This document shows positions 1 through 25,112 of a stretch of DNA of 26,027 bases, one piece after another. The position numbers and the translations under genes were made by a program. Within the stretch, counting starts at the first letter, position 1. Every line of letters begins with the position of its first letter. Source of the DNA: a virus; the IMG/VR virus record IMGVR_UViG_3300031241_000146, positions 1 to 26,027 of that record. One strand, written 5' to 3'. The notes beneath the pieces are model-generated. The model searched no databases and was not told the origin of the DNA. It saw only the letters and a program-made list of their open reading frames with translations.

Positions 1-1380
1 TCACGCTTCACCGATCACCTCCTCTGGCGCTTCGCCGGACCGCTCCAGCGAGCGGCAGCCTGATGCCTCTGCATTCACCGCCTGAGAGACCGGAACCAGG
101 TCACTCGTCTCCTCCGGCAACTCGCCCAGCCGCCCCGCCACCAGGTCCTCGAACAATTTTCGCCAGACACTGGCTTGTGTCCGCCACGAATGCGCTTCGG
201 CCCAGTCACGCGACTCCCGGCTCGCGCTGCTCAGGTCAGCTCCAAAGGCCCGGTCGACGGCCTGGGCGATCGCGCGCGGTGTGGTCTCGTGCGACGTGAC
301 CCGCCGGAACACCGTCCACGGCCGCCGCGACGTCACCTCGATCGCTAGCGCCTGGCTCGACGCGGGCAGCCAGCCGAGGCGAAGGTCACAGGGGACAGCG
401 AACAGACGACAGTCAGCGGAAGTCGACGGTTTCATTGCCGGCTGTAACCTGTAACCCGTTTCCTGTTCCCTCTCATCGCAGAACGGCCACCAGCGCGTCG
501 TCATCACCGGCATCCCGGCTGCCAGGGCCTCGTAGATCGGCAGCCCGCAGCCTTCCCAGCGGTGCGGGTGCAGGTACACGTCACCCCTCCCGAAAGACGG
601 TCCTCCCATCTCCTCCGTATCCCCACATCCCCTCGGTGAGGTCCCATTCCACAGCTCCCAGTAGTTGGCGGGCGATCCACGCACAACGCTGATTCGCGAA
701 TCGTCCGGCAGCGGCGGCAATTCGTGCTGGCTGCGCAGCACCAGCCGGGCAGGCGTCGTGACATACTGCCAGGCGGCGATCACCTTCGACGTGCTGTTAC
801 GGTCGCTCGAGCCCGCATGGCCCACGTGGTGTACGAAGACACGCGCCTTGTCGCGCGCGTGGAACTCGATCCGCTCCACGTCGCACGGCGGCGCAAGCAA
901 GGTCTTGACGGCGCGCGACAAGCCCGGCGTGTTGTCGCGCATTTCCTCCAGGCACATCGCGTGCGGGCAAATCGCCAGGTCTGTGTCCGAGAGTCCAAAT
1001 CCGTCGTGCGGGCAGCACTCGACCATCGGCACGAGCGCGGACTTGACGCCCAGCGCATGGGCCATCGCGGGCACGCTGTCGCCGTACCAGGTCTCGAAGC
1101 TCAAGAGCACGTCGGCGCCGCGACAGACCCACTCGATCAGCTCCGGCGTAATCTGCCCGTCGCCGGCGTGCCGGTTGGAGGGAATGGAAGAATGCGGCAT
1201 TCCTGATTCATCCTTCATCCCTCCGCCTTCATCATTTCCGTCAAACCGCTCCGGATGGTGCTCGCCGGCGATCCGCGAGAGGCTGATCGTGCGATGGAAA
1301 CCCAGCCCATGAGCGAAAAGCGACGAGAGCGAACCCAGGCCGCCGTTGTCGGCGCGGACGATTGCGGAGATTTTGGTCAT
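1..1380 (-). CDS. Group 1 (GT-B) glycosyltransferase with in-frame repeat insertions
   Basis: Predicted to transfer a sugar from a nucleotide-sugar donor; the substrate is unknown. At residues 271-292 it carries the C-terminal GT-B donor-site signature HPHRWEGCGLPIYEALAAG followed by MPV, typical of group 1 enzymes. I start it at the ATG at 1380 (MTKISAIVRADNGG, 459 residues). The frame stays open to 1764, but that extension only translates the hairpin repeat at 1422-1578. Residues 49-69 (GNDEGGGMKDESGMPHSS...) are encoded by a palindromic repeat. Residues 304-337 (REQETGYRLQP...) also look like translated repeat and fall just after the donor motif, where the family normally continues directly. 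Last gene of the minus-strand glycosyltransferase block; the TGA is at the window edge, so the C-terminus is complete. Family confidence is high. Activity is uncertain because of the insertions. Confidence 0.85.
   Translation of the reverse strand: MTKISAIVRADNGGLGSLSSLFAHGLGFHRTISLSRIAGEHHPERFDGNDEGGGMKDESGMPHSSIPSNRHAGDGQITPELIEWVCRGADVLLSFETWYGDSVPAMAHALGVKSALVPMVECCPHDGFGLSDTDLAICPHAMCLEEMRDNTPGLSRAVKTLLAPPCDVERIEFHARDKARVFVHHVGHAGSSDRNSTSKVIAAWQYVTTPARLVLRSQHELPPLPDDSRISVVRGSPANYWELWNGTSPRGCGDTEEMGGPSFGRGDVYLHPHRWEGCGLPIYEALAAGMPVMTTRWWPFCDEREQETGYRLQPAMKPSTSADCRLFAVPCDLRLGWLPASSQALAIEVTSRRPWTVFRRVTSHETTPRAIAQAVDRAFGADLSSASRESRDWAEAHSWRTQASVWRKLFEDLVAGRLGELPEETSDLVPVSQAVNAEASGCRSLERSGEAPEEVIGEA
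1177..1238. repeat. GGATGA-word palindromic repeat inside a glycosyltransferase gene
   Basis: The left part has GGAGGGAATGGA and the right part TTCATCCTTCATCCCTCC, an imperfect inverted pair. Read on the minus strand it gives an in-frame peptide with DEGGGMKDE. The same word family recurs in frame at 4193-4265 in a different gene, which supports an inserted element rather than ancestral coding sequence. Confidence 0.7.
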
Positions 1381-1421
1381 TAGTCGGACGAAGTGGGAAT
1401 TAGGAAGTCGGAAGCAATTAT

Positions 1422-1578
1422 GAAACCACGAAACACACGAAACACACGAAAAAAGAAGATCAGACTGACCACGGATAGTACGGATAACGCGGATGTTCGC
1501 AACGTCGGCGATATCCGTGGTTCTGTCTCCATTTTTCGTGTGTTTCGTTTGTTTCGTGGTCAAGTGCTTCGTGGTTTC
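1422..1578. repeat. Nested hairpin element of CACGAAA words
   Basis: The outer arms are GAAACCACGAAACACACGAA at 1422 and its near-complement TTTTCGTGTGTTTCGTTTG, then TTCGTGG, from 1533. Inside them is a second inverted pair: ACCACGGATA near 1468 and ATATCCGTGGT near 1511. It fills essentially all of the space between the group 1 glycosyltransferase and the oxygenase, and its right edge reaches the oxygenase stop codon. Related elements lie at 3526-3592 and 8468-8535. Confidence 0.85.
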
Positions 1579-1579
1579 G

Positions 1580-2356
1580 TCATTTGCTCCGCTCGACCCT
1601 GGCCGCTTCGCGCCCGGCGTCGAACGCCTCGTCGGCCCGCCGGACGAACCTTGCCCGCGGCCGCGGCTCGCTCCAGTAATAGATGGCGATACTCTTTCGC
1701 TCGATGCCCGCCGGCACGCGTACCGGCTGCGGATGCCCGTGGTAGTCGCGCGGCCCGGTTTCAAACAGCACCGCCCGATTGAACAAGGGCTCGATCACCC
1801 GCACCGGGCGGGTGCAGGCCCGGTCCCAAAGTTCGAGTGGCGAGAGATGGGTGGCGACAAGGGAATGAGGAGATAATGGGATCAGGAGATGAGGAGTGTT
1901 TCTCTCATCATCTCTTGACCTCATCACCTCATCATCCTTTCCGAGTTCCGTGCAATAGAGGATCAGATTCAACCTTCGCGCCAGCCCTGTCGCCGGGTGC
2001 CGCTCGTTATCGGCGTGAATGCCCAGCCAGCCGCCCGGCTCGGTCACGTGCAACCCGCCTCCGTACAGGGTCGCGTCGGCTTGCAGGTCGTCGAGCCCGG
2101 TCAACCAGCCGGCGATCTTGGCGGCGGTGGGGTCCGTCAGGCCGGCGAGAATCTGCCGGCACGCCGGGCCCATCGCGTCGAGGCGGTGGCAAGTTCGCTT
2201 GCCCTGTTCGTCGGCCGAGTCGTAGCGCACCCACGCCGTCGCCGGCACCTCATCGAATTCGGCCGCCGCCGCGCGCAGCAAATCGGCCGGTAGAACATCA
2301 TCGATCACCAGGTGCGGAAACGGCTCAGCGTTGAGAAACTGTTCGCGGAAATTCAT
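1580..2356 (-). CDS. 2-oxoglutarate/Fe(II)-dependent oxygenase family protein
   Basis: Predicted non-haem iron dioxygenase of the prolyl-4-hydroxylase-like type, 258 residues. The iron-binding HxD is visible as GIHADNE (H114, D116). The distal histidine is in DYHGHPQPV (H206 or H208), and R220 in ERKSIAIYYW is the likely 2-oxoglutarate ligand. Residues 139-171 (KDDEVMRSRDDERNTPH...) are a translated palindromic repeat. They sit between LNLILY and LELWD, in the loop that normally joins these two strands, so all core motifs survive. The ATG at 2356 lies 11 bases after the stop of the upstream GT2/methyltransferase gene and is preceded by AAGGGA, which suggests translational coupling. Such oxygenases often sit among glycosyltransferases in phage and surface-polymer clusters. 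The substrate is unknown. Confidence 0.85.
   Translation of the reverse strand: MNFREQFLNAEPFPHLVIDDVLPADLLRAAAAEFDEVPATAWVRYDSADEQGKRTCHRLDAMGPACRQILAGLTDPTAAKIAGWLTGLDDLQADATLYGGGLHVTEPGGWLGIHADNERHPATGLARRLNLILYCTELGKDDEVMRSRDDERNTPHLLIPLSPHSLVATHLSPLELWDRACTRPVRVIEPLFNRAVLFETGPRDYHGHPQPVRVPAGIERKSIAIYYWSEPRPRARFVRRADEAFDAGREAARVERSK
1864..1937. repeat. GATGAG-word palindromic repeat inside the oxygenase gene
   Basis: The left arm AATGAGGAGATAATGGGATC pairs approximately with the right arm ACCTCATCACCTCATCATCC. It is translated in frame in the oxygenase without introducing a stop. Sister copies lie at 5925-6000 (in frame in a GT2 gene) and at 18466-18542 (intergenic). Confidence 0.8.
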
Positions 2357-2367
2357 GGAGTCCCTTC

Positions 2368-4806
2368 TTACGCGCCGTCATTCGCAACGACGTTGAACAA
2401 GAAACGGTATTCGTGGCACGTGTCCGGCACGTGCTCCATGATCTCGTCATCGGTCCAGCCCGGATGCCGCGCTTTCATCCGCTTGAAATTTCGGCTCGGA
2501 ATTCGAGCCGTCGAATGGTGCTTCAGCCGCTTCGCGCAGCCGCCGAACCAGAACCCAACGGCCGTCTCGCACCAGTGCTCGACCTGTTCGTAAGTGATCG
2601 TGTGTTGGTGCGTGTAGCACATCGCCATGTTGTGGCCCCAGTGCGGCACGCGAATCTCGACCCGGCAGCCGATGGCGCCGATGCGGACGATTTCACGCAA
2701 GAGCGGGCGATAGTCGGCGACGTGCTCCAGGCAGTGGCTCGAATAAACGTGCAGCGCCGAATCGTCGTCGAACGGAAGTTTCCTGGTCGGCAGGTCGTCG
2801 AAGTCGAATCGCACGTCGGCGCAGTCGAGCACATCGACGTTGACAGACCCAAGGCCGCGCGGTGTGCGGCCTCCGCCCAATTCGATTGCCAGCGCGGCCG
2901 ACTTGCCGGGGCCGTCGTCGTCAGCGAAACGCAGCTCGGCCGGGTACGTCGCCGGATCGTAGGCGTTCACCGGCTCGTCCATCGCCAGGCAGCATGCTTC
3001 TTCAAGATCGAACATCGCGGCCGGGTACGCCTCGACGCCCCAGCCATGCGGCGGAACGTCGCGCCAGGTCGCTGCGCTCCCGTCATTGGTCATTGGTCCT
3101 TTGTCATTTGTTACGCGCGATACTGGAGCTTGCATGCCTTCAACCAATGACGAAGGACCAATGACTAATGACCGCCTCCCAAACAGGGCGTCGTTGCGAA
3201 ACCAGAAAAACGAGCCGGCGAAGTGCCAGGGCGACTTCGCGCCGCAAGGATATTCGGCGGTAGTCGTCTTGCGATGCGTGCCGACGATCGCGTAGCGCGT
3301 GAGCGCGTCTTTGATCGCTTCCGGGTCATCCAAGAGCGCGTGATACATCAGGTTCCGCCAATACATGACCCCCTCCACATCGCCAATCGTCGTGACCCCC
3401 TTGGCGTGGGCGTAGAATGTCGCTTCGCCGGGGTCGGTCGATTGCACCGCCTCCAAGAGCGGCAGGAAGCTCGCGTTCTCGCGCAGCACGCGGTCGTTAG
3501 CGACTTCGATGAAGACCGGAGAATTGCCACCAAAAACACGAAAAGCATCCGCCATATCCTTTTCGTGATTCTCGTGTTTTTCGTGGCCATGGTCCCGACG
3601 AAAAAGACGTTTGACCTCATCAACCGCGTCCATACCATCACCGGTCGCTATCGCAATGATCCGCTGTCCATTGAACACGTCCCATCGCTTGAGGAGTTGT
3701 CGGATGTTCTTTTTCCAAACGTCGGACTTGGCGAACGGGGCGACATGGTAAATAAGGTTCAGCCTGATCGGCCGCGAGAATCGTGGCTTCGCGGAATTCC
3801 GGCAATCCGAAGTCCGAAATCCGCAATCCGTCCCGGCGCGCCGGGATTGCTCCGGCAGGACGTCGCCGTCGTCCGCAAGCAGCTTCTCCAGTCGGCCCAC
3901 GATTTCAGAGTCATCCCGCCCGTTGGCCAGATACATACCCCGCGCCGTTGCCGCGCGCAGGTGAACCCGGTTGGCGTCGATCTCAATTTCGTCCAGCATT
4001 TCCGGGCCCAGGATGATCGGCCTCACACCGCGGTCGTGCAGACGGTAGTTGATCGCCATTTCGGTATCGACGAGGACCCCGCGGCCTGACTTCGCCGCCT
4101 GCCGCTTCAACCGCCGCATCGACCAGGTGACATCGAGCTCGTCGAGCGTCGGCACGTGCAGCAGCGTGCAGGTGTGCGAGACGAAGTGCGACAAAGGATG
4201 AGAGTACAACGATGAATTCGCAATGCTGGGCTCATCCTTCATCCTTCCGCCTTCAACCTTTTCTCTCGGCATCGTCCTGTATCCGATGCACGGGTTCTTG
4301 CCGCCGTCGGCCAGCGCCAGCAACTCGGCCAACATGCTGCGACGTGTCACGAAGCAATCGGAGTGGACGCACCACAGGTGCTCGGTCCGGCAGACGGCCA
4401 TTCCCAGGTCCATCGCGTAGCTGACGGCCGCGACGGCATGGTCTGTGCCATGGCAGTTGACTTGATGCACCTCGACGCGCTCGCTGCGCAGTGCCAGCAC
4501 GTTCGGCAGTTCGGCTTCAGACGTGCCGGTATCGACGATGACCACGTAGACCGGGATCGTCTGACGCATCAGGAATCCCAGGCAGAGCTTGAGCAGCTTC
4601 GGTGTACCGCAGTGCGGGATAAGTGCCGTTACGGCATAGTCTCGCGGCTGTTTCACGAACGGGCTCTCCCACGGCATACGTTGCAGGCCGCGGTGTGGGA
4701 GCTTTGCCCGACCCAAGAGCTGATCGCGGGTCGGCTTCGGCACGACGGTCATCAGCCCCTGGGCCTGCAGGTCGGAATGGATTTGTTGCGTGAGCGATTT
4801 GGGCAT
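2368..4806 (-). CDS. GT2-like glycosyltransferase / SAM methyltransferase fusion carrying four in-frame repeat inserts
   Basis: An 812-residue multidomain protein. Residues 55-260 look like a GT2 fold (YAVTALIPHCGTPKLL, VYVVIVDTG, LWCVHSDCF). Residues 345-545 form a second domain with FYAHAKGV and WHFAGSFFWFR, resembling a second glycosyltransferase-like unit. Residues 637-812 look like a class I methyltransferase (AIELGGGRTPRG as motif I, HCLEHV downstream). Four stretches appear to be translated repeats: residues 182-208 (KVEGGRMKDE...), 325-340 (GTDCGFRTSDCRNSA), 404-426 (DHGHEKHENHEKD...) and 545-577 (SLVIGPSSLVEGM...TNDKGPMTND). They lie between conserved blocks. I prefer the ATG at 4806; the frame also opens from a TTG at 4833 within a repeat. 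It probably builds or decorates a surface glycan. The acceptor is unknown. Confidence 0.8.
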   Translation of the reverse strand: MPKSLTQQIHSDLQAQGLMTVVPKPTRDQLLGRAKLPHRGLQRMPWESPFVKQPRDYAVTALIPHCGTPKLLKLCLGFLMRQTIPVYVVIVDTGTSEAELPNVLALRSERVEVHQVNCHGTDHAVAAVSYAMDLGMAVCRTEHLWCVHSDCFVTRRSMLAELLALADGGKNPCIGYRTMPREKVEGGRMKDEPSIANSSLYSHPLSHFVSHTCTLLHVPTLDELDVTWSMRRLKRQAAKSGRGVLVDTEMAINYRLHDRGVRPIILGPEMLDEIEIDANRVHLRAATARGMYLANGRDDSEIVGRLEKLLADDGDVLPEQSRRAGTDCGFRTSDCRNSAKPRFSRPIRLNLIYHVAPFAKSDVWKKNIRQLLKRWDVFNGQRIIAIATGDGMDAVDEVKRLFRRDHGHEKHENHEKDMADAFRVFGGNSPVFIEVANDRVLRENASFLPLLEAVQSTDPGEATFYAHAKGVTTIGDVEGVMYWRNLMYHALLDDPEAIKDALTRYAIVGTHRKTTTAEYPCGAKSPWHFAGSFFWFRNDALFGRRSLVIGPSSLVEGMQAPVSRVTNDKGPMTNDGSAATWRDVPPHGWGVEAYPAAMFDLEEACCLAMDEPVNAYDPATYPAELRFADDDGPGKSAALAIELGGGRTPRGLGSVNVDVLDCADVRFDFDDLPTRKLPFDDDSALHVYSSHCLEHVADYRPLLREIVRIGAIGCRVEIRVPHWGHNMAMCYTHQHTITYEQVEHWCETAVGFWFGGCAKRLKHHSTARIPSRNFKRMKARHPGWTDDEIMEHVPDTCHEYRFLFNVVANDGA
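3082..3172. repeat. CCAATGAC-word palindromic repeat in frame in the GT2/methyltransferase gene
   Basis: GTCATTGGTCATTGGTCC at 3082 pairs with GGACCAATGACTAATGAC ending at 3172, with a spacer of about 40 bases. It encodes the peptide with LVIGPSSLVEG and TNDKGPMTND. The intergenic relative at 25113-25289 uses the same words. Confidence 0.8.
3526..3592. repeat. CACGAAA-word palindromic repeat in frame in the GT2/methyltransferase gene
   Basis: GCCACCAAAAACACGAAAAG is followed by CTTTTCGTGATTCTCGTG and TTTTTCGTGGC, an imperfect inverted pair. It encodes HEKHENHEKD on the minus strand. Same family as 1422-1578. Confidence 0.75.
3804..3831. repeat. CAATCCG-word repeat in frame in the GT2/methyltransferase gene
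   Basis: The words CAATCCG, AAGTCCG, AAATCCG and CAATCCG follow one another. They encode DCGFRTSDC in frame. A convincing second arm is not visible (only a weak GGGATTGCTCCGG nearby), so this may be a half element. Confidence 0.5.
4193..4265. repeat. GGATGA-word palindromic repeat in frame in the GT2/methyltransferase gene
   Basis: AAAGGATGAGAG on the left, and CTCATCCTTCATCCTTCC with CCTTTTCTC on the right, form an imperfect palindrome. It encodes EKVEGGRMKDE...HPLSHF in frame. Same family as 1177-1238, which also yields GGGMKDE. Confidence 0.7.
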
Positions 4807-4828
4807 GGGAGTTAGATTTGTGGCGTAG

Positions 4829-4884
4829 ACCAAAGCTCAAAGACCCAAGTCCCAAGACCATGTCGGGGTCTTAGGTCTTTGGTT
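4829..4884. repeat. CCAAGACC-word palindrome
   Basis: ACCAAAGCTCAAAGACCC at 4829 pairs with GGGTCTTAGGTCTTTGGT ending near 4883, with CCCAAGTCCCAAGACC between. It lies just upstream of the GT2/methyltransferase start. It accounts for the TTG-initiated extension of that frame. Confidence 0.7.
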
Positions 4885-4947
4885 CCTTGTCATCGGCACT
4901 GGCTGGCTGGTCGCCATCCGGCGGAAGGCAACGCCAGTGGGTAAAAA

Positions 4948-5160
4948 GATGCCATCGGCTTGCCCGATGGAGATTCACGCTGGCCGCTAAAAAAAGCCCG
5001 CACCTCCTGATCTTTTTCAATTCCACCGAGACCGCCGTCCCGCTTGCTGCCTTCGGCGGCAAGCGGGACGGCGGAGAAAGGCAGGTCGAGGGTGCGGCAC
5101 GTCCCACTTAGCCGCAAACGTCACGGACCACCGGGCAAGCTGGCAAGCCGGTGGCATGAC
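4948..5160. repeat. Composite palindrome, copy 1 of 3
   Basis: The outer arms are GATGCCATCGGCTTGCCCGA followed by TGGAGATTCACG on the left, and CAAGCCGGTGGCAT on the right. A strong inner hairpin at 5031-5074 has CCGCCGTCCCGCTTG paired with CAAGCGGGACGGCGG. With 4829-4884 it fills most of the 429-base gap between the two glycosyltransferase genes; I see no gene there. The same architecture recurs at 14159-14371 and 15656-15840, with unrelated inner hairpin sequence here. Confidence 0.8.
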
Positions 5161-5235
5161 AGCTTCCACGCTGTGGCGGAACAACACCGAATTAAAGTCA
5201 AACACAACCGGCCGTCTGCGCACGCCATGCACACC

Positions 5236-6789
5236 CTATGACCTCTCCGCCAACCTGATCGCCTCATCGACCAGCGATCCGAACGGGTTGGCCAACGACA
5301 GCCGCAATGCCAGCCCGCTGGTGACTGCCCTCGCCGCGGCGGCCACCTTTTCTTTCCAATTCCAACGATCCTGGCCTTTTTTCAGCCATGCCACGATCGT
5401 CTCGCGGTTTTTCGCGCAGCCTTCAACCCCCCAGCGGTCCATTTGCTCCATCCGCGCGACGCAGTCACACGTCGGATCTTGCTCGATTCCGATCGACTCC
5501 AACAACCCTTTCAACTCCGTGCCGGGACCAAATCCTGGCGGCGGACGGTAATTCGGGTCGCGGCGCAAGAGCGTGATCCCCGGCTCGACGGGCCGATGGA
5601 GGATCGTGTTCCATTCGCGGTGCTCGCCGCACCAGCGGTTGACGGCATCCGCCAGGCCCGGCCGATGTGTGCCGTCGAGCGCGATAAACTGCCGCGGAGG
5701 ATAGGCCGCATTTGGACCGGCAACCGTGTCTAACAGATCAGCAAGCACTTCCGGTACCGTTGGCGTGAACTCGACGAACAGGAAATCGGTTTCGTTCGTT
5801 AACGGCTCCGCGCGTCCGCCATCGTCGCCGCGCCGGTGGTTCATTTCGGTCACGGTGTGGCAGGTGTCAAGGAAACCCTGGAGGTGAGGGATGCGTTGCT
5901 TGTGACCCGAAAGCGACGAGGCGCGGTGATGATGGGGTGATGAGTTGATGGGATGATGAGTGCTTCGCTCATCATCTCCTGATCTCCTCACCTCATCACC
6001 CTTTCGCTGCACCCCGCCGCGGTTCTTCACCGGGTCGGCCACGATCTGCTTCCACCCGGCCTCGCTGAGCTTGCCAGGCCTCACGAAGGCGTCATGCACC
6101 GGGGCCAAGTCCCAACCCAGCGAACAGAACCAGAGCACAAAGTTGGCCGCCTTGTCCTCGAGCGTGGGCGTGTACGCCGGCTTCTCGAACCGCGGGTCGG
6201 TGAACTTGTGCCACCAGCGCAGGAACGGCAAGCAGAGCGTCTTGTGGCCGGCCCGGCGCACCTTTTCGTGGTAACACATTTCCTCCCCGCCAAAGCCGCG
6301 CGCGTCGGGGTGAAAGCCCAGCCACGCCTCCTTGCGGCAGGCGAACAGGCCCAGTCCCATACCGGGTATCTCGAACGGTTCGGCATCGAAGTTCTCACCG
6401 CGCGGGTCAAGCGCCCACTGGCCCAACATCGCGTCGTCGCCCCATTTCGGCTCCCAGTGCGTCGCGCCGACCTGGAGGTGGTCCCAAAGAATTGGCCCGC
6501 TCACCAGGTCCATCGAGCCGCGATGCGCGTCGAACCATGCCAACATCCGCTTGAGCGCGCCGGGGACGACGTGCACGTGCGCGTCCATGCAGAGCACGAT
6601 TTCGCCTTGGGCATCGGCGAACACGCGGTTACGCGGCTGGCTGGTGCCGGTTGGTTCGTGCATCGGCACGTAGCGGATCATCCCATCGCCCCAACCCTCG
6701 CAGAAGTTCTTCAGCATCACGCTCTGGCCGTGTGGGCCGGGGTGGTTGTCGATCACCACGATCTCGGCGTCGAGCTTAGGTACGGCCAC
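5236..6789 (-). CDS. GT2 glycosyltransferase with C-terminal cysteine motif domain, probably N-terminally truncated
   Basis: GT2-type core: DAEIVVIDNHPGPHGQS, then a DxD-like EIVLCMDAHVHV and, further on, GLGLFACRKEAWLGF and FGGEEMCYHEK. The C-terminal region (GTELKGLLESIGIEQDPTCDC, then RMEQMDRWGVEGC) is a cysteine-bearing domain I recognise from phage-cluster proteins, with no firm function. The family's usual first strand and donor-binding start are missing. The frame is open to a TTG at 6906, but it overlaps the preceding gene out of frame by 154 bases. I use the GTG at 6789 (MAVPKLDAE) as a compromise. A GATGAG-word repeat at 5925-6000 is translated in frame between the two domains. The start is uncertain and the gene may be a deletion product. 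Confidence 0.75.
   Translation of the reverse strand: MAVPKLDAEIVVIDNHPGPHGQSVMLKNFCEGWGDGMIRYVPMHEPTGTSQPRNRVFADAQGEIVLCMDAHVHVVPGALKRMLAWFDAHRGSMDLVSGPILWDHLQVGATHWEPKWGDDAMLGQWALDPRGENFDAEPFEIPGMGLGLFACRKEAWLGFHPDARGFGGEEMCYHEKVRRAGHKTLCLPFLRWWHKFTDPRFEKPAYTPTLEDKAANFVLWFCSLGWDLAPVHDAFVRPGKLSEAGWKQIVADPVKNRGGVQRKGDEVRRSGDDERSTHHPINSSPHHHRASSLSGHKQRIPHLQGFLDTCHTVTEMNHRRGDDGGRAEPLTNETDFLFVEFTPTVPEVLADLLDTVAGPNAAYPPRQFIALDGTHRPGLADAVNRWCGEHREWNTILHRPVEPGITLLRRDPNYRPPPGFGPGTELKGLLESIGIEQDPTCDCVARMEQMDRWGVEGCAKNRETIVAWLKKGQDRWNWKEKVAAAARAVTSGLALRLSLANPFGSLVDEAIRLAERS
5925..6000. repeat. GATGAG-word palindromic repeat in frame in the GT2 gene
   Basis: GGTGATGATGGGGTGATGAG pairs with CTCCTCACCTCATCACC, separated by a second pair GGGATGATGAG/CTCATCATCTCC around GCTTCG. 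It encodes GDEVRRSGDDERSTHHP. It separates the GT domain from the C-terminal domain. Confidence 0.8.
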
Positions 6790-7604
6790 GATGCCGTAAC
6801 CACCGCCGGCGCCGCCCTGGTTAATTCGGCGAGACTCATCTCTTTGCGGTAAACCGCGGCGTCGATGCGCGCGAGGTAACAGGCGCCCATCCCGCCGGCC
6901 AGCCAACTGCGGTCGCTCGTGTAGCCCGGCACGTCGGTCGCGTAATCGACCCCCAGTACCACCGCCGCTCGACTCGCCAGCGCCGGCAACTCATCGATCG
7001 GGTGAACCCACGGATGCCAGGCCACACCCGGCGGCAAACCGTCGCCGCCATTGCCGACCCAAAGCACGCGGCGGCCGGCGGCGGCCAGCGCCCGCGCGTC
7101 GAGGTACCGCTGCCGGTAGGCGCCCGATGCCGAACCGACGACGAGCACCTCCCACTCGGGCCGCTCGACATGTTTGCACGCCGGCATATCGGCCGGACAT
7201 GCCTGGTCGAGGTATTCGGCCTTGATCCCCAACTCGGCGTACACGGGCAACTGGCTCCGCTCCTTGACGAACAACCGGTCGATCGCGCGCAGGAACCGTC
7301 CGAACGTGCGGATGTGGTCCTGTTTGGCCAACGGCATTTTGCGCTCGAACGAAAACAAGTCGCGCCACCACTGCACCCAAATTGCCTTTCGGCCGGCCGC
7401 CAGCTCGGCGAGCGAGCCCACGTTGCAGCCCGCCCCGTGCTGGTCGAACACGAGCAGTTCGCACTCGGCGTCGGCCGCGGCCACTTCGCGCGCCGTGTGG
7501 CAGCGGCGCACGTCGTGGCCGGCCTGGCGGAAGCCGTCGGCCATCCAGCCGGGCTTATCGACCAGCATGTCGGCCGGCGCGGCGGATACGATGGCAACGT
7601 GCAT
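6753..7604 (-). CDS. GT-B-like glycosyltransferase (CgeB/YkvP-like), probably C-terminally truncated
   Basis: A 283-residue protein starting at the ATG at 7604 (MHVAIVSAAPADML). The upstream extension to 7748 is only translated repeat. It has a Rossmann-like N-terminal half (CELLVFDQHGAG, KAIWVQWWRDLFSFE) and a second half with WEVLVVGSASGAYRQRYL and SWLAGGMGACYLAR, resembling the donor-side motif of CgeB-type glycosyltransferases. The protein ends soon after that motif with LTRAAPAVVTASW. The next 35-50 residues expected of the fold are absent, and the GT2 sequence starts in another frame at the same place. I infer a deletion that removed the 3' end of this gene and the 5' end of the next. 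The family assignment is moderate. Confidence 0.7.
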   Translation of the reverse strand: MHVAIVSAAPADMLVDKPGWMADGFRQAGHDVRRCHTAREVAAADAECELLVFDQHGAGCNVGSLAELAAGRKAIWVQWWRDLFSFERKMPLAKQDHIRTFGRFLRAIDRLFVKERSQLPVYAELGIKAEYLDQACPADMPACKHVERPEWEVLVVGSASGAYRQRYLDARALAAAGRRVLWVGNGGDGLPPGVAWHPWVHPIDELPALASRAAVVLGVDYATDVPGYTSDRSWLAGGMGACYLARIDAAVYRKEMSLAELTRAAPAVVTASWPYLSSTPRSW

Positions 7605-7669
7605 GGGAGGGTCACAGAACTGGTCGGTAGTCGGGACGCTTACACCACAACCCACGTGCGGCGGAAGAA

Positions 7670-7750
7670 AAATGCAAAATGCAAAATGAGAAATGAGAAA
7701 TGAGAAATTGGCAGACAAATTCCCGGTTGCCCATTTTCCATTTCCCATTG
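7670..7750. repeat. GCAAAATG-word palindromic repeat
   Basis: AAAATGCAAAATGCAAAATG and three GAGAAAT words are followed by CCCATTTTCCATTTCCCATT as complementary right arm. It lies upstream of the GT-B-like gene. A left-half relative lies at 21533-21590. The gap at 7605-7858 holds this element and a GCCTATCGCC word; no gene is seen. Confidence 0.75.
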
Positions 7751-7858
7751 CTCCCGCGAACTAGGAGCGAACCCCAAGACCGCCAGGTAGGCAGGACGCT
7801 AGAACCGGGGGGCTTACGCCCGGCCTGACGGCCTTCCCCGCTCGCCTATCGCCTTTTT

Positions 7859-8407
7859 CTAGGCTGGCAACGGATTGGGCTCGCCCTCCCAATGCTTGTT
7901 GCCGGTCTGCAAGTCGGTTTTCAGGTCCCAAGAGCGCTCCTGCTTCAGCCGCTCTTCGACACACTTGGGAAACTCGCCTGCGATCTGGCGCGCGTCGTTG
8001 TCATGCACGGCGCGAAACATCCACTTGGCCCAACGCCACAGTTGCTGAGGCTGGAGGTTCTCATAGACCAAGGGCCGCTCGATGTCGAGCCGCCGGCCAA
8101 GCTGGTCGCGGAAAACGCGGGCGATCGCTTCCCCCGCGTCGTCCTTAAAGAGCGGGTCGAACACGCGCACGCTGCGGGCCTTGATATCGAGCGACACGCG
8201 ATAGCCGGGCAGTTCCTCCGGAGCGTGCGCGATCTTCGGATCGGTCCGCGCCTCGGGCGGCATGTGCTGGTTCTTCCGCCAGCGGCCGCGGCGCGTCTCT
8301 TCCATCGGCTCGATCAACACGTTGGCGTTGCCCGGCCGGGTGATCTGCGAAGTTTCCTTGTCGCGAATTTCGTCGCGATCCAGTTCGATGACAATGGGGT
8401 TGGCCAT
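7859..8407 (-). CDS. Unknown protein downstream of the major capsid gene
   Basis: A 182-residue soluble, charged protein (MANPIVIELDRDEIRDKETS...). No signal peptide, membrane segment or known catalytic motif is visible. The only tryptophan-rich patch is QLWRWAKWMF, near the centre. The ATG at 8407 has GGAG at 8416-8419 (minus strand), so the start is well supported. It directly follows the capsid gene, where phages encode head decoration or head-tail joining proteins, but I see no family signature and would not name it so. The stop TAG is followed at once by a GGCGATAGGCGAG repeat word. Confidence 0.75.
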   Translation of the reverse strand: MANPIVIELDRDEIRDKETSQITRPGNANVLIEPMEETRRGRWRKNQHMPPEARTDPKIAHAPEELPGYRVSLDIKARSVRVFDPLFKDDAGEAIARVFRDQLGRRLDIERPLVYENLQPQQLWRWAKWMFRAVHDNDARQIAGEFPKCVEERLKQERSWDLKTDLQTGNKHWEGEPNPLPA

Positions 8408-8467
8408 GGTTGTAGCTCCGGGATTGATGGGGTTCTAGGTTTTGGGCTTTAGGCAAGAACAGGAAAT

Positions 8468-8535
8468 CGCCACGAAAAACACGAAAAAGCGCGAAGAGAT
8501 GCAGAGTTTTTGTGCTCTTGGTGTTTTTTGCGGCC
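8468..8535. repeat. CACGAAA-word palindromic repeat between capsid and following gene
   Basis: CGCCACGAAAAACACGAAAA pairs imperfectly with TTTTTGTGCTCTTGGTGTTT and GCGGCC. Third copy of the family at 1422-1578 and 3526-3592. The 8602-8618 segment just before the capsid stop holds ACGCCTATCGCC of another word family. Confidence 0.75.
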
Positions 8536-8618
8536 AACGAATTGAATCGCGGTGGCCTTTGGCGAGCGGACAACTGGGACGATGAGAATATGCCCCGCGT
8601 CCGAACGCCTATCGCCTT

Positions 8619-10253
8619 CTAGTGCAAAGGCGCGTTGGTCATCAGCACCCAGGCGTTGGGGTCGATCACCTGGCCGGCCCAGCGGCTGCGGGCGGTGATC
8701 AACAGCTCGTTGGCCAGCCGCAGCGTCTTGCCGTCGTCGGTCACCGCCAGCTCCATCCCCTTGCGGCGCCACATGCGGTACTTGTCGATGCGGCCATAGC
8801 CGAAGCTCGCGGCGGCGATGCCGTTTTGCACCTTGAACGGCCGGTTGTAGAACATGTAGGCGTCGAGATCGTAGCCGAAGATCCGCCGTTGGTCGGTCGT
8901 GCTCACCGGAATCCCGCGCAACCGGAAATACTGTGAGTCGGCCGAGAGGAAAACCACCTTGTCGTTCTTGCCGCGGTACTGCTTGGGCAGCGCCTTGACC
9001 ATGTTCTCGATGTCACCCACCGTCCACGGCCCGGCCGTCGAGTTCTTGGCGCTGGCGGTGTTCGTGCCGGTCGTGTTCATGATGCCCAGCGGGTAGGTCG
9101 TGCCGTCGCCGATGGCCACGGCCTGGTCGAGCCATTGCAAAAGGGCCACCTGGTAGAGCTGAATGAAGGCGTCTTGCAGGCCGATCGGCGTGTCGGCCAG
9201 CATGTCACGCCCGATCGTCAGCGCGCCGGTCGCGTTAAAGACGTTCGACGTGATCACCGTCGACAGGCCGGCGGTGGTCTGCAAGCTGATCCCCGGCGAG
9301 TCGCCCTCGGCCGGGCCGGCCGCGATCGTCAGGTTGGCCAGGGTCGGCGTTTTCACCTGGTTGCTCGTGCCCAGTTCGCGCAGGTCGACCAGCGGAAACA
9401 ACTCGCCAAACAACAGCGGGTAAGTCACCAGGTCGACGTCGAAGAAGTAGGGCACCAGGTACGTGCCGCCGGAGGTCGAGTCGTCGAGGTAGGTCTTGCG
9501 CTGCGCCTCGCTGAGCGTTCTGGGCTGCGAGAAATACTGGGCGCCGTTGCCATCCTGGTAATCGCCCACCCACTGCCCCTTCTCGACCAGCTCCTGCAAC
9601 AAGTCGCGGTCGTGGTCTGAGAGCATGTGCTTCAGGCCGAGCTGGCCGAGCAGCTTGTGCTTGAGCCAAACGCCGCTCAAGGCCCTCTCGAGTTGACTCT
9701 GCTCGTAGGCCGGGCGGCCGTCGAACGTGACGTCCTGCCCGGCCAAGGGATGGTTGGTGGGCCGGCCGTCGAGTCCCTTGGCCGGGTAGACCTTGCGCCC
9801 CTTGGTCGAGTCGTACTGTTCGCTGGCATGCTTCACTCGCGGCTCGCCTGTGGCGGCCGCCGCGGCCGGGCCAAAAATCGCCGCCGGCTGCGTCGCCGAG
9901 TTCGCGCGCGTCCCCGCCGACGTTGCGGCGGCAACCAGTTCCGTCGCGGATTTCGCGGGCATTCCCGCCGCCGCCGAGCCCGTGACCTGGGCCGAATTCG
10001 TGACGATTTCGTCCGGCCGCGTGGCGCTGATTTCGAGCGCGGCGAGCCGTTTATCGAGCGCGGCGTCGATGAGGCCGGCCAGTTTGTCGAACGGGCTTTT
10101 CTTATCGGCCTTGGCGGTGGTGAGTTTGAGGTACTTCTTGCGCGAGAGCTCGCCTGAGGCCAGCTTTTCAGCCGCCAATTGCCGCAGCGCCTTTTTGTCG
10201 GCGCCGGAATCGAGGCCGAACTTTTCGATCAGAAACGCTTTCAGAGCGTTCAT
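8619..10253 (-). CDS. HK97-fold phage major capsid protein with N-terminal scaffold-like region
   Basis: A 544-residue protein and the main shell subunit of the phage head. The first 200 or so residues are charged and low in complexity (KKALRQLAAEKLASGELSRK), like the delta/scaffold domain that the prohead protease removes. The capsid domain follows: GGTYLVPYFFDVDL, LFPLVDLRELGTSN, LTIGRDMLADTPIG, LDQAVAIGDGTTYPLGIMN, VFLSADSQYFRLRG and the C-terminal ELLITARSRWAGQVIDPNAW. These are recognisable P-domain and E-loop blocks of the Phage_capsid family. The ATG at 10253 (MNALKAFLIEKFGL) has AAGGA at 10262-10266; the frame upstream is an extension. The protease gene lies just upstream, the standard order. 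No repeat insertion interrupts this gene. Confidence 0.93.
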   Translation of the reverse strand: MNALKAFLIEKFGLDSGADKKALRQLAAEKLASGELSRKKYLKLTTAKADKKSPFDKLAGLIDAALDKRLAALEISATRPDEIVTNSAQVTGSAAAGMPAKSATELVAAATSAGTRANSATQPAAIFGPAAAAATGEPRVKHASEQYDSTKGRKVYPAKGLDGRPTNHPLAGQDVTFDGRPAYEQSQLERALSGVWLKHKLLGQLGLKHMLSDHDRDLLQELVEKGQWVGDYQDGNGAQYFSQPRTLSEAQRKTYLDDSTSGGTYLVPYFFDVDLVTYPLLFGELFPLVDLRELGTSNQVKTPTLANLTIAAGPAEGDSPGISLQTTAGLSTVITSNVFNATGALTIGRDMLADTPIGLQDAFIQLYQVALLQWLDQAVAIGDGTTYPLGIMNTTGTNTASAKNSTAGPWTVGDIENMVKALPKQYRGKNDKVVFLSADSQYFRLRGIPVSTTDQRRIFGYDLDAYMFYNRPFKVQNGIAAASFGYGRIDKYRMWRRKGMELAVTDDGKTLRLANELLITARSRWAGQVIDPNAWVLMTNAPLH

Positions 10254-10298
10254 GGGTGGAATCCTTGTGGGGTTAAAAGCAGGGTGTGACAAGATCCG

Positions 10299-10322
10299 GA
10301 ATACCCGCGTAGCGGGTCGGCG
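10299..10322. repeat. ACCCGC-GCGGGT short palindrome
   Basis: TACCCGCGTAGCGGGTCGGC is one of at least five related hairpins in the window, with others near 16020-16048, 17770-17800, 21640-21665 and 23404-23439. It lies upstream of the capsid gene. Confidence 0.6.
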
Positions 10323-10371
10323 ATCGCCGATCCACCATTGCCGTACCCGACGATTGGTGCGCCGTTCGAGT

Positions 10372-10471
10372 GTGGCGAGCGGGGGGCGTGAGCCCCCTGT
10401 TGTCCAGTGTGTTCACCAAGGTGTGTCGTGTCCGCGGCGCAAACAGGAGGCTTACGCCCCCCGCTCGCCTG
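10372..10471. repeat. Inverted GGGGGGCGTAAGCCCCC element
   Basis: GGCGAGCGGGGGGCGTGAGC then CCCCTGTT on the left is inverted as AAACAGGAGGCTTACGCCCC then CCGCTCGCC on the right, with about 40 bases between. Each arm is also a local hairpin. It lies between the protease stop (10483) and the capsid start and fills that 229-base gap. Half copies lie at 17693-17722, 22280-22312 and 24489-24522. Confidence 0.85.
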
Positions 10472-10482
10472 AAGCTGCATGC

Positions 10483-12171
10483 TTACCGCCCGAACTCTGA
10501 AACGATCTCGGCCAGTGCGGCCGATTCGTCGTCGTGCTCGCGCTGCCGTTCGATCCGCGAAATGGCGCCGCGTACTTGCCGGCGGGTCTTGCCGAGCGCT
10601 CGCTCAAGCGCTTTGAGATCGTGCAGCTCGTTCGTGGCGGCGAACCGGCTCATGGCCATCGCAAATAGACCCGTCAAGCGGCCCTTGCAATTCGCCGCGA
10701 ACGACGTGGCCTCTTCAGTTCCTGGATCGGGCGCCATGCCGTTGGGCGCGCCGCTGCCGCCGTGGTTCATGTCGTCGTCGGGGTCGGCCGGCGGCTCCTG
10801 GTTCGCGCCGAGCACCGACTTGAGTTTCTTGATGGCCGTCTTGGCCATCGACTTGTGGCCCGGCGTCGATTGCTCGTGCGATTTGATCGCCCGGCCATGC
10901 GCGATCGCCTCCTGGATCACCGCCGCGTTTTCGGCCGATACCGCCCGGCCCGATTTGCCGCCCCGTTCATTGGCACGTCGATCGCTTTGCCGGCTTCCTT
11001 CGTTACTGCCACCGCTGGCGCCGTCGACGGTATAGGCGCTCATATCGTCCTGGCCGCCGCTATCGCCCCCGCTGTCGCCGGCACTGTCGAACAGTCCCTG
11101 GACACACCGGTAGCCTTTGTCGGCCAGGAGTACCACGTCGGGGTGCGCCTCGTCGTCGTTGGCGATGGCCTTAAAATTGGCGCCCGCCGCTTGCAGCCTT
11201 TTTTCGTTGGCCGCCGAGAACACGCGGCCGCTCTTGTAGGTTAGGCTTTCCAGCCTGACGGAGCCGCGGGTCGCGCATTCCAGCATCTCGTCCGAATGGA
11301 CGGCCTGGCGATGCAACGTCTTGTTTCTGGGTTTCATGGTTTCCATCAGATCCTGGTTGTGACCGTGCTCCTGGGTTACGTCGCCACTGCCGAGCTCACC
11401 ACTCACCACTCCACCACTCACCAAGATGGGCCTTGCCCTGAACATCGCCCCGGCCCAGGCCCTGACCAGCGGGTGATGCAGCTTTTCGCGGCTGAACTGG
11501 GTGATGACGGCGTCGGGGTTCGAGGGCACACTCACCAGCGAGACTTCGAGGATTTTGAACGCCGTGATGTGGAATCCGCTGAAAGCGTCCTTGGCGTCGA
11601 GCGGCTCGAACTCGTCGGGCAGAAAGCCGTGCGAGATGCGCAAGGCCCCATGCTCGGCCAACAGCGCCGCGTCTTGCCCCAGCGCCGTCGCGGCGATGGC
11701 GAAACTGCCCGCCAGGCTGGTCTTGGTTCGTTTCCCTTCCTTCAGCAGCCGGCCGATCGGCTCGGTGGTCAAGTGTTGCCACAACAGGGGCGCGGCCGGG
11801 TCGAGCTCGGCCCCCTTGGTTTCGAGCACGTCGCCGTCGCGGTCCTGCCGCGTGGTCGTGATCACGGCGGGAAACGTCGCGATGGTATGCGGCGGCAGTT
11901 GTGGCGTGGGCGTCCCGCCTGCCCGTTCCGAAGCAGGCGGGACGCCTGCGCCACAATCGCCGATCGTCATATCATCGGCGTGGTACACCAGGCGGCTCTC
12001 CGCCTCTTTAAGCATCGTGTTCCAGGCGTCGGTCGAGACATCGCCAAGGACCTTCGACGGGCAGACACCGCCCAGGCACGTGGTCAATTCGCGCAAAAAG
12101 GGCGCCGCGGTCGAGATACCCCGGTACGTCGTGCGCCCTCGGACGTTATTCAGGAGGTCTTGATAATTCAT
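10483..12171 (-). CDS. HK97-family prohead protease with long C-terminal extension
   Basis: A 562-residue predicted capsid-maturation serine protease. The S78-like core is at residues 98-225: FPAVITTTRQDRDGDVL, LLWQH (H133, candidate catalytic histidine), ISHGFLPDEFEPL, and EVSLVSVPSNPDA, where S214 is the candidate nucleophile. It is encoded just upstream of the capsid gene, as expected. Residues 72-92 (CGAGVPPASERAGGTP...) are a translated palindrome at 11899-11956, inserted before the catalytic core. Residues 250-263 (LVSGGVVSGELGSG) also look repeat-derived. The C-terminal half has an unusual KGYRCVQGLFD block, then an acidic Ser/Gly-rich linker and a helical end; it may act as scaffold. 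The ATG at 12171 has no clear ribosome site. Confidence 0.88.
   Translation of the reverse strand: MNYQDLLNNVRGRTTYRGISTAAPFLRELTTCLGGVCPSKVLGDVSTDAWNTMLKEAESRLVYHADDMTIGDCGAGVPPASERAGGTPTPQLPPHTIATFPAVITTTRQDRDGDVLETKGAELDPAAPLLWQHLTTEPIGRLLKEGKRTKTSLAGSFAIAATALGQDAALLAEHGALRISHGFLPDEFEPLDAKDAFSGFHITAFKILEVSLVSVPSNPDAVITQFSREKLHHPLVRAWAGAMFRARPILVSGGVVSGELGSGDVTQEHGHNQDLMETMKPRNKTLHRQAVHSDEMLECATRGSVRLESLTYKSGRVFSAANEKRLQAAGANFKAIANDDEAHPDVVLLADKGYRCVQGLFDSAGDSGGDSGGQDDMSAYTVDGASGGSNEGSRQSDRRANERGGKSGRAVSAENAAVIQEAIAHGRAIKSHEQSTPGHKSMAKTAIKKLKSVLGANQEPPADPDDDMNHGGSGAPNGMAPDPGTEEATSFAANCKGRLTGLFAMAMSRFAATNELHDLKALERALGKTRRQVRGAISRIERQREHDDESAALAEIVSEFGR
11899..11956. repeat. Near-perfect 58-bp palindrome in frame in the prohead protease
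   Basis: TTGTGGCGTGGGCGTCCCGC at the left is mirrored by GCGGGACGCCTGCGCCACAA at the right around GTTCCG. The arms differ at only a few positions. Read in frame it gives GAGVPPASERAGGTPTP. I recall similar GVPPA...AGGTP peptides in planctomycete proteins, which marks it as a mobile or dispersed repeat. Confidence 0.9.
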
Positions 12172-12639: not shown

Positions 12640-12945
12640 TCATTCGAAAGCCCAGGGCGAAACCCTGGGAACCGTCGCGATTAGACCCGTCGTCAGCCAC
12701 AATGGGGTGCAACTCGCAAACACCGTAACAAGTTTCGCCCCGTTGGGGCTGACGACATGATGGAGGGGACATCGTCCCAGGGTTTTACCCTGGGCTGTCG
12801 AATTCGGCCCCTTCGGGGCCGTCTGCGACATGGCCGCCGGCATCCTCGACCCCAACGGGGTCAAATTCCACAGCCTAGGGCGCAGCCCTAGGTTCGCGCC
12901 CAATCCAATGACAATTCACCCCAACGGGGTGACACCGTCGATTGT
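12640..12945. repeat. Array of short hairpin modules
   Basis: Consecutive small palindromes: CCCAGGGCGAAACCCTGGG, CCCCGTTGGGG, CCCAGGGTTTTACCCTGGG, CCCCTTCGGGG, ACCCCAACGGGGT, CCTAGGGCGCAGCCCTAGG and CACCCCAACGGGGTG. They are separated by 20-40 base spacers. The same modules are rearranged at 21718-22117 and 23709-24240. No gene is seen between 12172 and 13046. Confidence 0.85.
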
Positions 12946-18423: not shown

Positions 18424-18465
18424 ATAAGTTGATTGTCGCAAAAGGTGGCTTGGAGTTGGCGGAGT

Positions 18466-18542
18466 GAAGAGGTGATGGGATGATGAGATCATGAGATGAT
18501 GAGCGCTTTTCTCCTCATCTCCTTATCCCCTCCCCTCATCAC
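18466..18542. repeat. GATGAG-word palindromic repeat, intergenic copy
   Basis: GAAGAGGTGATGGGATGATG and GAGATGATGAG pair with CTCCTCATCTCC and CCCCTCATCAC. Third member of the family at 1864-1937 and 5925-6000, here outside a gene. Confidence 0.8.
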
Positions 18543-18870
18543 GTTCTCGGCGCCTTCCCCGCGTCCTAATGCCTATCGCCTATGCCTCGCCGTCACGCCC
18601 TGTATGAAACTCGGCCTTTACCCGACGAGCCTTCGACATAAGGGGCACATGAAGCGCTGCAGGGGGTCAACCAGGGTGGGGATTAGAAGACGACGCTCCG
18701 GCCGCGGCGGCGCTTGTTGGCCGGCGCAATTTCAACTTGCGCGGCCTGCGCGTTGTCGGGACAGGCCCGAGTTTCGTCCGGGCGGTTTTCTTCTCTCTAC
18801 TTTCTGCTTTTGCTTTTTTCCTCTGCTTCGTCCCAACGCCTAACGCCTAGCGCCTTTCCCTAACGCCTCC
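18543..18870. other. Gap with GCCTAACGCC words and possible coding remnants
   Basis: GCCTATCGCC/GCCTAACGCC words lie at 18555-18590 and 18834-18868. On the minus strand two short open stretches overlap: RACPDNAQAAQVEIAPANKR, ending at a TAA at 18683, and LQRFMCPLCRRLVG, ending near 18634. Neither has a credible start. They may be the ends of small phage genes broken by frameshifts, or chance. No confident gene. Confidence 0.35.
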
Positions 18871-21532: not shown

Positions 21533-21590
21533 GAGAATGCAAAATGCAAAATGGGAAATGCAAAATGGGAAATGAGAAACTGGGAAATTG
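21533..21590. repeat. GCAAAATG-word repeat, left half only
   Basis: GAATGCAAAATGCAAAATGG and GAAATGCAAAATGGGAAATG with GAGAAAC follow one another. The words match 7670-7750, but no full complementary arm follows, so this is a half element upstream of the zinc protein gene. Confidence 0.7.
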
Positions 21591-21717
21591 GATTCCGCCG
21601 GTTTTGCAATTGACCCCAACGGGCCGTAGGGTGGGACCCGGGGCAGCCGCGCAGCGGATCGGCGGGCGCCGGCGTGAGCGGTTTATTGCGGCGTGACGCG
21701 TGGACGGCAACGCCGTC

Positions 21718-22117
21718 CTCGACCCCAACGGGGTCATATTCCACAGCCTAGGGCGCAGCCCTCGTTGTTCTACATATCTTTGGCGCCACTGGATGCTGTC
21801 TTGCCCCGTTCACGGGGCTTCGGCGCAGCCGTATTCGGCCCGGCGTTTACGCCGGGTTCGCAAACCGCGCAACTTGATTCTCTTCCAGCCCCGTTCACGG
21901 GGCTTCCGGAATGGCTTAAGCCGGACGATTGGTAAGCCCCGTGAACGGGGCTAAATATCCAATAATCCGCTCCTGTTTTCCCCGGCATGAATGCCGGGTC
22001 TGTGACCGCTTCGCGGAAGGCCCCGTGAACGGGGCGATAGGACTCTCGCGACTTGTGTCGAACAACGAGGGCGTAGCCCTAGGTTCGCGCCAACCAAGGG
22101 CAATTCACCCCAACGGG
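21718..22117. repeat. Hairpin-array module A, inverted partner of module B
   Basis: Flank CGACCCCAACGGGGTCATAT, then CCTAGGGCGCAGCCCT. The core of about 310 bp at 21761-22070 contains three CCCCGTTCACGGGG/CCCCGTGAACGGGG hairpins and GGCGTTTACGCC; the end is TTCACCCCAACGGGGTGACA. The core matches the reverse complement of 23751-24060 at roughly nine bases in ten by eye. The 819-base gap 21451-22269 otherwise holds short repeats and no gene. Confidence 0.9.
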
Positions 22118-22260
22118 GTGACACCGTTCGAATCGCCCGACGCGCGGACGTGCGCCACGCTGTCGTGGAATAAAACTTGGATAAAGACCAAACGGTCGTG
22201 TCCCGACATTTTGCACAGGGCAGTCCCACCTTGCTCCTTCGCGCCTTTGCGTGAGTCGTT

Positions 22261-22312
22261 TCCGGCATGTCATGCCGGACAGCAAACAGGGGGCTTACGC
22301 CCCCCGCTCGCC
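22261..22312. repeat. Perfect 9-bp hairpin and GGGGGCTTACGCCCCC half element at a stop codon
   Basis: TCCGGCATGTCATGCCGGA (22261-22279) is a perfect stem that contains the stop codon of the ABC-ATPase/acetyltransferase gene. Next to it is AACAGGGGGCTTACGCCCCC then CGCTCGCC, which is translated as the last residues (ASGGRKPPVC) of that protein. A terminator is possible but there is no T-run. Confidence 0.75.
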
Positions 22313-23708: not shown

Positions 23709-24240
23709 TCGACCCCAACGGGGTCATATTCCACAGCCTAGGGCAACGCCCTCGTTGTTCTACACAAGTCGCGAGAGACATATCGCCCCGTTCACGGGGC
23801 CTTCCGCGAAGCGGTCATAGACCCGGCATTCATGTCGGGAAAAATAGGAGCGGATTATTCTATATTTAGCCCCGTTCACGGGGCTTACCAATCGTCCGGC
23901 TTAAGCCACTCCGGTAGCCCCGTGAACGTGGCTGGAAGAGAATTAAGTTGCGCGGTTTGCGAACCCGGCGTAAACGCCGGGCCGAATACGGCTGCGCCGA
24001 AGCCCCGTGAACGGGGCAAAACAGCATCCCGTCGCGGCCAAAGATGTGTAGAACAACCAGGGCAACGCCCTAGGAACGCGATGAGCCCGAACAATTTCAC
24101 CCCAACGGGGTGACACCCGACATGAGTACGTTGCACGCCATTGGTCGCGCCCCGTTGGGGCTTCGGTGGGTTGATTGCGTGTGGTTCCTAGGGCTGCGCC
24201 CTAGGCTGTGGAATCGTGCCCCTTTGGGGCTGAAAACGAG
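23709..24240. repeat. Hairpin-array module B and adjoining hairpins
   Basis: It opens with the same flank as module A (CGACCCCAACGGGGTCATAT, CCTAGGG) and in the same orientation, and ends with TTCACCCCAACGGGGTGACA near 24116. The core 23751-24060 is inverted relative to module A. CCCCGTTGGGG, CCTAGGGCTGCGCCCTAGG and CCCCTTTGGGG hairpins continue to 24240. No gene is seen between 23626 and 24275. Confidence 0.9.
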
Positions 24241-25106: not shown

Positions 25107-25112
25107 GGTCAA

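Follow-up and report, generated by a model that had tools for sequence, protein, structure and literature searches.

Word-built palindromes within the cargo genes of a viral genome behave like Rickettsia palindromic elements and may be mobile hairpins

Introduction

How do long palindromes come to lie within protein-coding genes without destroying them, and are they genetic elements in their own right or products of local mutation? The question is raised by the virus record IMGVR_UViG_3300031241_000146 of IMG/VR, which was analysed over its complete length of 26,027 bases (positions 1 to 26,027; hereafter the window) and which encodes capsid, portal and prohead protease genes. An initial annotation of this DNA had listed seven palindrome-like repeats translated in frame. 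Our analysis upholds those beginning at 1177, 1864, 3082, 3526, 4193 and 5925 as members of a set of palindromes whose arms consist of ordered, degenerate copies of 7-, 8- or 9-nt words, and finds that homologues of the oxygenase and transferase that carry them lack the corresponding segments. These word hairpins are probably non-autonomous mobile hairpins that work in the manner of Rickettsia palindromic elements (RPEs), with words like those of the short tandemly repeated repetitive sequences (STRRs) of cyanobacteria. The host of the virus is likely a planctomycete, since the closest homologues examined come from planctomycetes.

Results

The word elements found in genes all lie in a cargo block of glycosyltransferases and a 2-oxoglutarate (2OG)-Fe(II) oxygenase (1-7.6 kb, all minus strand). 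The carrier genes and their elements are as follows.

1-1380, minus strand: GT1 glycosyltransferase
388-475, minus strand: palindromic element of 7-mer ACAGGNN words (arms and complement) in GT1, encoding ..EREQETGYRLQPAMKPSTSADCRLFAVP..
1177-1238, minus strand: TTCATCC-family element in GT1, encoding DEGGGMKDESGMPHSSIPS
1580-2356, minus strand: 2OG-Fe(II) oxygenase (PF13640)
1860-1940, minus strand: 8-mer TGATGAGG element of 81 nt (AAGG..CCTT) in the oxygenase; RNA fold z -5.5
2368-4806, minus strand: 812-aa transferase
3078-3179, minus strand: 7-mer GTCATTG element with a GTCCTT unit in the transferase, encoding SLVIGPSSLVEG..VTNDKGPMTNDG; RNA fold z -7.4
3523-3592, minus strand: 9-mer CACGAAAAA element in the transferase, encoding HGHEKHENHEKDMADAFRVF; RNA fold z -4.8
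3804-3831, minus strand: half element of AAATCCG 7-mers in an interdomain linker of the transferase
4190-4265, minus strand: TTCATCC-family element in the transferase, encoding EKVEGGRMKDEPSIANSSLYSHPLS
5236-6795, minus strand: glycosyltransferase-2 (GT2) protein (PF00535)
5925-6006, minus strand: 8-mer element in the linker after the GT2 domain

Comparison with homologues gave the size of the inserts. The 27 residues (81 nt) contributed by the oxygenase element have no counterpart in 17 of 17 aligned planctomycete homologues, and the active-site HxD motif, distal H and R are retained in this alignment despite the insert. In the transferase, homologues L257 and L258 lack about 34 residues (102 nt) at 3078-3179 and are shorter by 22 residues (66 nt) at 3523-3592, while at 4190-4265 homologues L292 and L291 lack 18 and 19 residues, respectively (54-57 nt). 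The GT1 homologues are distant, so that the lengths at its two sites are approximate and less certain: 29 residues (~87 nt) are missing at 388-475 from L355 and L358, the clearest cases, and 20 or more from the others, while across 1177-1238 six distant homologues are shorter by 19-30 residues (net insert given as 57-69 nt). The segment at 388-475, at first taken for a half element, is a whole one; that at 3804-3831 is indeed a half, in a linker that is variable in L257 and L258. Linker length also varies among homologues of GT2, where no clean net insert could be measured. The sites lie in loops or linkers, as first described, and a search for distant homologues bearing the same peptide at the same place found none. 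Insert lengths divisible by three are what selection on the genes would produce, and by themselves they show no property of the element.

As had been noted, the genic elements all keep the frame and every carrier gene is intact. This intactness goes beyond chance, because five of the listed elements leave just one to three of the six frames open. Capsid, portal and terminase genes (the last at 18.9-21.1 kb, assigned by reading only) are free of word elements, as had been noted for the capsid, portal and small terminase genes; the cargo block makes up 35% of coding bases, and the chance that all seven genic elements would fall there is ~7e-4.

A scan of the window for hairpins detected 14 long inverted repeats, whereas five Markov shuffles gave 0-1 each. 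Half of them (7/14) have periodic arms with units of 7, 8 or 9 nt; three are intergenic and four genic, at 1865-1935 (8-mer), 3082-3172 (7-mer), 3523-3590 (9-mer) and 5930-5998 (8-mer). The TTCATCC words at 1177-1238 and 4193-4265 are clear, and these copies are too decayed for the detector, with weak RNA folds (z -1.9 and -1.2); seven of nine elements fold well beyond their shuffles (z -3.8 to -8.3). The same words recur between genes, as first reported, and such intergenic copies are confirmed at 1425-1560, 18457-18549 and 25101-25290.

1425-1560: intergenic 9-mer CACGAAACA hairpin, arms 35 nt, score 27.5
4828-4885: intergenic 7-mer GTCCCAA hairpin at the 5' end of the transferase gene (read by eye)
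7670-7750: intergenic 7-mer words AAAATGC/AAATGAG
8466-8536: intergenic 9-mer CACGAAAAA words (read by eye)
18457-18549: intergenic third copy of the 8-mer element, no frame open
21534-21596: intergenic AAAATGC words
25101-25290: intergenic GTCATTG/CAATGAC cluster with ordered units as in 3082-3172

Units and loop are common to all three 8-mer copies, and a YTCCGCC unit holds the same position in both TTCATCC copies. The GTCATTG family runs GTCATTG-GTCATTG-GTCCTTT-GTCATTT-GTTA at 3082 and GTCATTT-GTCATTG-GTCCTTC-GTCATTT-GTTA in the intergenic copy at 25168 (RNA fold z -6.4 for 25168-25252), and genic and intergenic copies have matching ordered units (D1, 61-82%; I22, 94%). Because unit order, and in the 8-mer copies the loop as well, is common to copies, each word family reads as a defined element and not as a free slippage array. 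Families may also be nested, a second 9-mer hairpin, CACGGATAG (~1468-1524), lying within the loop of the CACGAAACA hairpin. At 18425-18549 the 8-mer element gives an 87-aa open reading frame (ORF) an upstream in-frame ATG, and start prediction there may be wrong.

The arrangement of the words explains how they can be translated. Since seven is not divisible by three, three successive units of an unvaried CAATGAC or GGATGAA array are enough to put a TGA in every frame. As read from the arrays, one TGA is lost where a variant unit occurs (GAAGGAC for CAATGAC, GGCGGAA for GGATGAA), and one frame of the purine strand is then open; the opposite, pyrimidine-rich strand of both words is open, for the TTCATCC arm in every frame. 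With one frame left open, a family therefore yields a recurring peptide, and the variant unit belongs to the element, because intergenic copies carry it too. Several words also hold overlapping stop and start codons (ATGA, TGATG), and in viral contig L006 (~2831-2860) a CAATGAC array forms the stop of one phage gene and the start (MTNDQ) of the next.

The same words are found in other phages. The CCGCC unit common to 1177-1238 and 4190-4265 is shared with 24 viral stretches, in which the ordered 21-mer TTCATCCTTCCGCCTTCATCC (TTCATCC-TTCCGCC-TTCATCC) is present in 29 distinct contexts, 19 of them intergenic and 10 in ORFs, some of which may be spurious. Its purine strand encodes KDEGGRMKDE in L363, in the terminase L370 (PF17289, 4.5e-7) and twice in L385, a phage transposase (phrog_310, 7e-21), and the window peptides VEGGRMKDE and DEGGGMKDE are slightly changed forms of it. 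Viral contig L014 (17 kb) is dense in many palindrome families, several within ORFs. The exact 9-mer array GAACACACGAAACACACGAAA had no match among viral sequences; nor did searches of viral contigs for relatives of the oxygenase, transferase, GT2 and capsid proteins, of phage and plasmid records for GT2 relatives, or of solved structures with the oxygenase and terminase return any.

In bacteria, the matches listed place AATGACC arrays in at least seven phyla; in that set they are commonest in cyanobacterial loci, and the exact AATGACC triple is present in Cyanobacteria, Planctomycetota, Verrucomicrobiota, Bacteroidota, a deltaproteobacterium, a gemmatimonadete, Salinispora and others. Among 100 arrays away from contig edges, six lie inside ORFs, all in the stop-free orientation, including in-frame arrays in the RecG gene of L089 (1gm5, E 2e-162) and in the O-antigen ligase gene of L109. 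In the latter (1930-4998), one loop holds the word peptides LVIGHWSLVIG, SEVGGRNSEDGG, HRDTEDTEK and SDFGSRTSG, apparently stacked insertions of different families. A candidate 8-mer copy in L211 was rejected as a chance resemblance, the segment being judged from its residues to be conserved and glycogen-synthase-like.

A related planctomycete genome proved as mixed in its families as the window, so that the initial view of many families in 26 kb as unusual is not supported. Genome G316, of a related planctomycete genus, has in 482 kb scanned (10% non-coding) 18 periodic hairpins, of which 14 are intergenic, two partial and two genic; the genic share is unusually high in the window by comparison (Fisher p 0.03, 25 elements). 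Eight of the 18 start within 15 bp of a tRNA gene, and in one tRNA array (L218 2324-3546 of G316, with L319, L317 and L316) almost all spacers are word-built hairpins, where congeners have spacers of mostly 5-17 bp. For a given tRNA pair, the spacers of congeners are either short (mostly 5-17 bp) or hairpin-bearing: between Leu and Val, G316 has 97 bp and G404 has 7 bp; between Pro and Asn, G404 has 99 bp, with 7-mer arms, against 10 bp for G227. The comparison of occupied and empty sites suggested earlier thus gave occupied and nearly empty tRNA spacers, and no exact empty sites. Another hairpin repeat of G316 (L218 3629-3708) consists of inverted pairs with dozens of copies per genome.

Other repeats of the window are of different classes. 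The palindrome of the prohead protease, counted initially with the family at 11899, has no word periodicity and belongs to another class.

10483-12171, minus strand: prohead protease gene (PF04586 relatives)
11893-11962, minus strand: non-periodic, GC-rich, near-perfect palindrome in the protease gene, encoding AGVPPASERAGGTPTP; z -8.3

Homology of the protease to PF04586 relatives begins just after this palindrome. Non-periodic CCCCAACGGGG..CAGCCTAGGG repeats lie at 12846-12938, 21719-21774, 22086-22127, 23709-23764 and 24190-24238; they resemble elements that in related planctomycetes (L328, L347, L348) stand beside Y1 transposase genes, and look like a separate class akin to repetitive extragenic palindromic (REP) elements. 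Inverted repeats of 305 nt (21779-22083 and 23737-24041, 94% complementary), packed with AGCCCCGTGAACGGGGCT palindromes, lie on both sides of an ORF (22270-23376) whose product looks like a fusion of an ABC-type ATPase with an acetyltransferase.

Discussion

The palindromes could have been made in place, with slippage expanding word arrays, template switching at quasi-palindromes inverting their arms, and the likeness of the words reflecting biased mutation. Words do turn over at orthologous sites, one-unit slippage is seen between nearly identical contigs, the six hairpins in a single tRNA array differ greatly in their loops, arms are more alike within than between loci, and slippage is named for heptamer repeats in the literature (PMC4679880). 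Such an origin is hard to reconcile with the agreement in unit order and loop among the three 8-mer copies and between both TTCATCC copies of the window, with an exact ordered 21-mer recurring in 24 viral stretches, or with whole palindromes standing where none of the 17 oxygenase homologues has one, and we regard it as rather unlikely. Selection for function, acting on RNA processing or termination hairpins in spacers or on useful peptide loops, would suit the RNA folds, far stronger than shuffles in seven of nine elements, the hairpins that start within 15 bp of tRNA genes, and their persistence at orthologous sites despite word change. We nevertheless hold it to be very unlikely, as many congener tRNA spacers of 5-17 bp are free of hairpins, none of the homologues examined has the genic copies, which occur in unrelated proteins, and two window copies have decayed folds.

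Scarcely probable at all is that these are REP-type elements moved by Y1 transposases (REP-associated tyrosine transposases, RAYTs). Of 13 genomes examined, 12 encode Y1 transposases, and REPs can occur within genes (PMC3733652); against this, word-periodic inverted repeats flank none of 30 Y1 loci examined, several of which are flanked instead by non-periodic CCCCAACGGGG, AGCCCAGGGT or CCCAGGGT elements like the other intergenic repeats of the window, and the GTAG end was not seen among the aligned TTCATCC copies. Y1/RAYT transposases are not indicated by the data as the mover.

The preferred explanation, that the word hairpins are non-autonomous and mobile, has points against it as well. Three old intergenic sites keep a hairpin across species while its words change, which could mean local word turnover or selection for the hairpin and not transposition. 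At L234 2152-2260, congeners carry unrelated sequence and no clean gap, and the species compared, ~70-82% identical in nucleotides, are too diverged for exact empty sites. The terminase copy in L370 was rejected as a clean insert; half an element there has replaced a loop of near-equal length seen in the homologue, with a net difference of 4 aa only. Visual inspection of 19 aligned TTCATCC elements showed no obvious target-site duplication, no fixed or common ends were found across families, and no transposase was found, so that the results give no support to the single insertion mechanism suggested at first for all families.

Mobile hairpins of this kind would be palindromes of ~60-100 nt, each family with arms of ordered degenerate 7-, 8- or 9-nt words. 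Copies would insert as whole units, as homologues and related tRNA spacers without them indicate, most likely when a single-stranded hairpin is taken up or copied during replication or recombination. Genic copies would survive where the frame is kept and the site is a loop or linker, adding 18-34 residues to an otherwise normal protein, as seen in the oxygenase and at three transferase sites and likely in GT1. Word number shifts by single-unit slippage, as one case shows, two contigs 99.6% identical that differ by exactly one 7-nt unit. Arms tend to remain matched within a locus, probably via template switching in the hairpin; arm similarity was 0.87 within and 0.80 between loci (permutation p 0.014, five loci), in a small and biased test whose loci were picked by hairpin score, which also tells against the reading.

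Among known systems, RPEs, in-frame palindromes with family peptides (PMC10969869), come closest in behaviour, as the initial annotation had recognised: the elements are palindromic, have several families per genome, and lie in frame in unrelated genes with a recurring family peptide, here KDEGGRMKDE in L363, L370 and L385 (twice) and in slightly changed form twice in the window. The RPE size of ~80-150 nt is matched by the 81-nt and 102-nt palindromes, some window copies being 54-66 nt. Unlike in RPEs, the arms consist of ordered 7-9-nt words, and whereas RPEs are those of Rickettsia or Wolbachia, the window words are found in phages, planctomycetes, cyanobacteria, Bacteroidetes, Verrucomicrobia and others, not in Rickettsiales. 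The likeness is one of described behaviour, and membership is not claimed. RPE-4, RPE-6 and RPE-7 are reported to be rich in ATGAC and to occupy orthologous sites with different families, a trait shared with the word hairpins (PMC3767692); the CAATGAC word likewise contains ATGAC, no more than a lead.

Known heptamer repeats form direct arrays, Xanthomonas having also 70-75 inverted pairs of GGGAATC per genome (PMC4692102), and horizontal transfer has been suspected for them (PMC4679880). The word elements share with STRRs and heptamer repeats (PMC4692102, PMC4679880) the 7-nt words, a mostly intergenic position and a patchy distribution across phyla; head-to-tail 7-nt units are a feature of the 7-mer families, and the 8- and 9-mer families do not fit. 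In contrast to the direct intergenic arrays of STRRs, the window copies are inverted ordered pairs, eight of them in genes, whole units in frame. REPs, reported in Planctomycetes and inside some genes, are likewise small multi-copy palindromes (PMC3733652), but the word hairpins are longer, word-periodic and away from Y1 transposase genes at the loci examined. Miniature inverted-repeat transposable elements are also small, non-autonomous inverted-repeat units able to fuse in frame to genes (PMC10969869); for the word hairpins no parent transposon was found, and no target-site duplication was visible in the 19 elements aligned. Neither the words nor the peptides turned up in the literature searched. 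We suggest tentatively, and think it possible though doubtful, that there is a phylum-spanning class of word-periodic mobile hairpins, partly carried by phages, with one insertion mechanism and a one-open-frame consensus that seeds peptide loops, of which RPE-4, RPE-6 and RPE-7 and the cyanobacterial STRRs would be branches.

Most descriptions of in-frame mobile palindromes concern Rickettsia and Wolbachia; here the behaviour is seen in phages and several phyla, with word-built arms and a recurring peptide. This links two separate puzzles, that of the heptamer repeats and that of the in-frame palindromes, and makes the idea that selfish repeats are a source of new protein segments testable outside obligate parasites.

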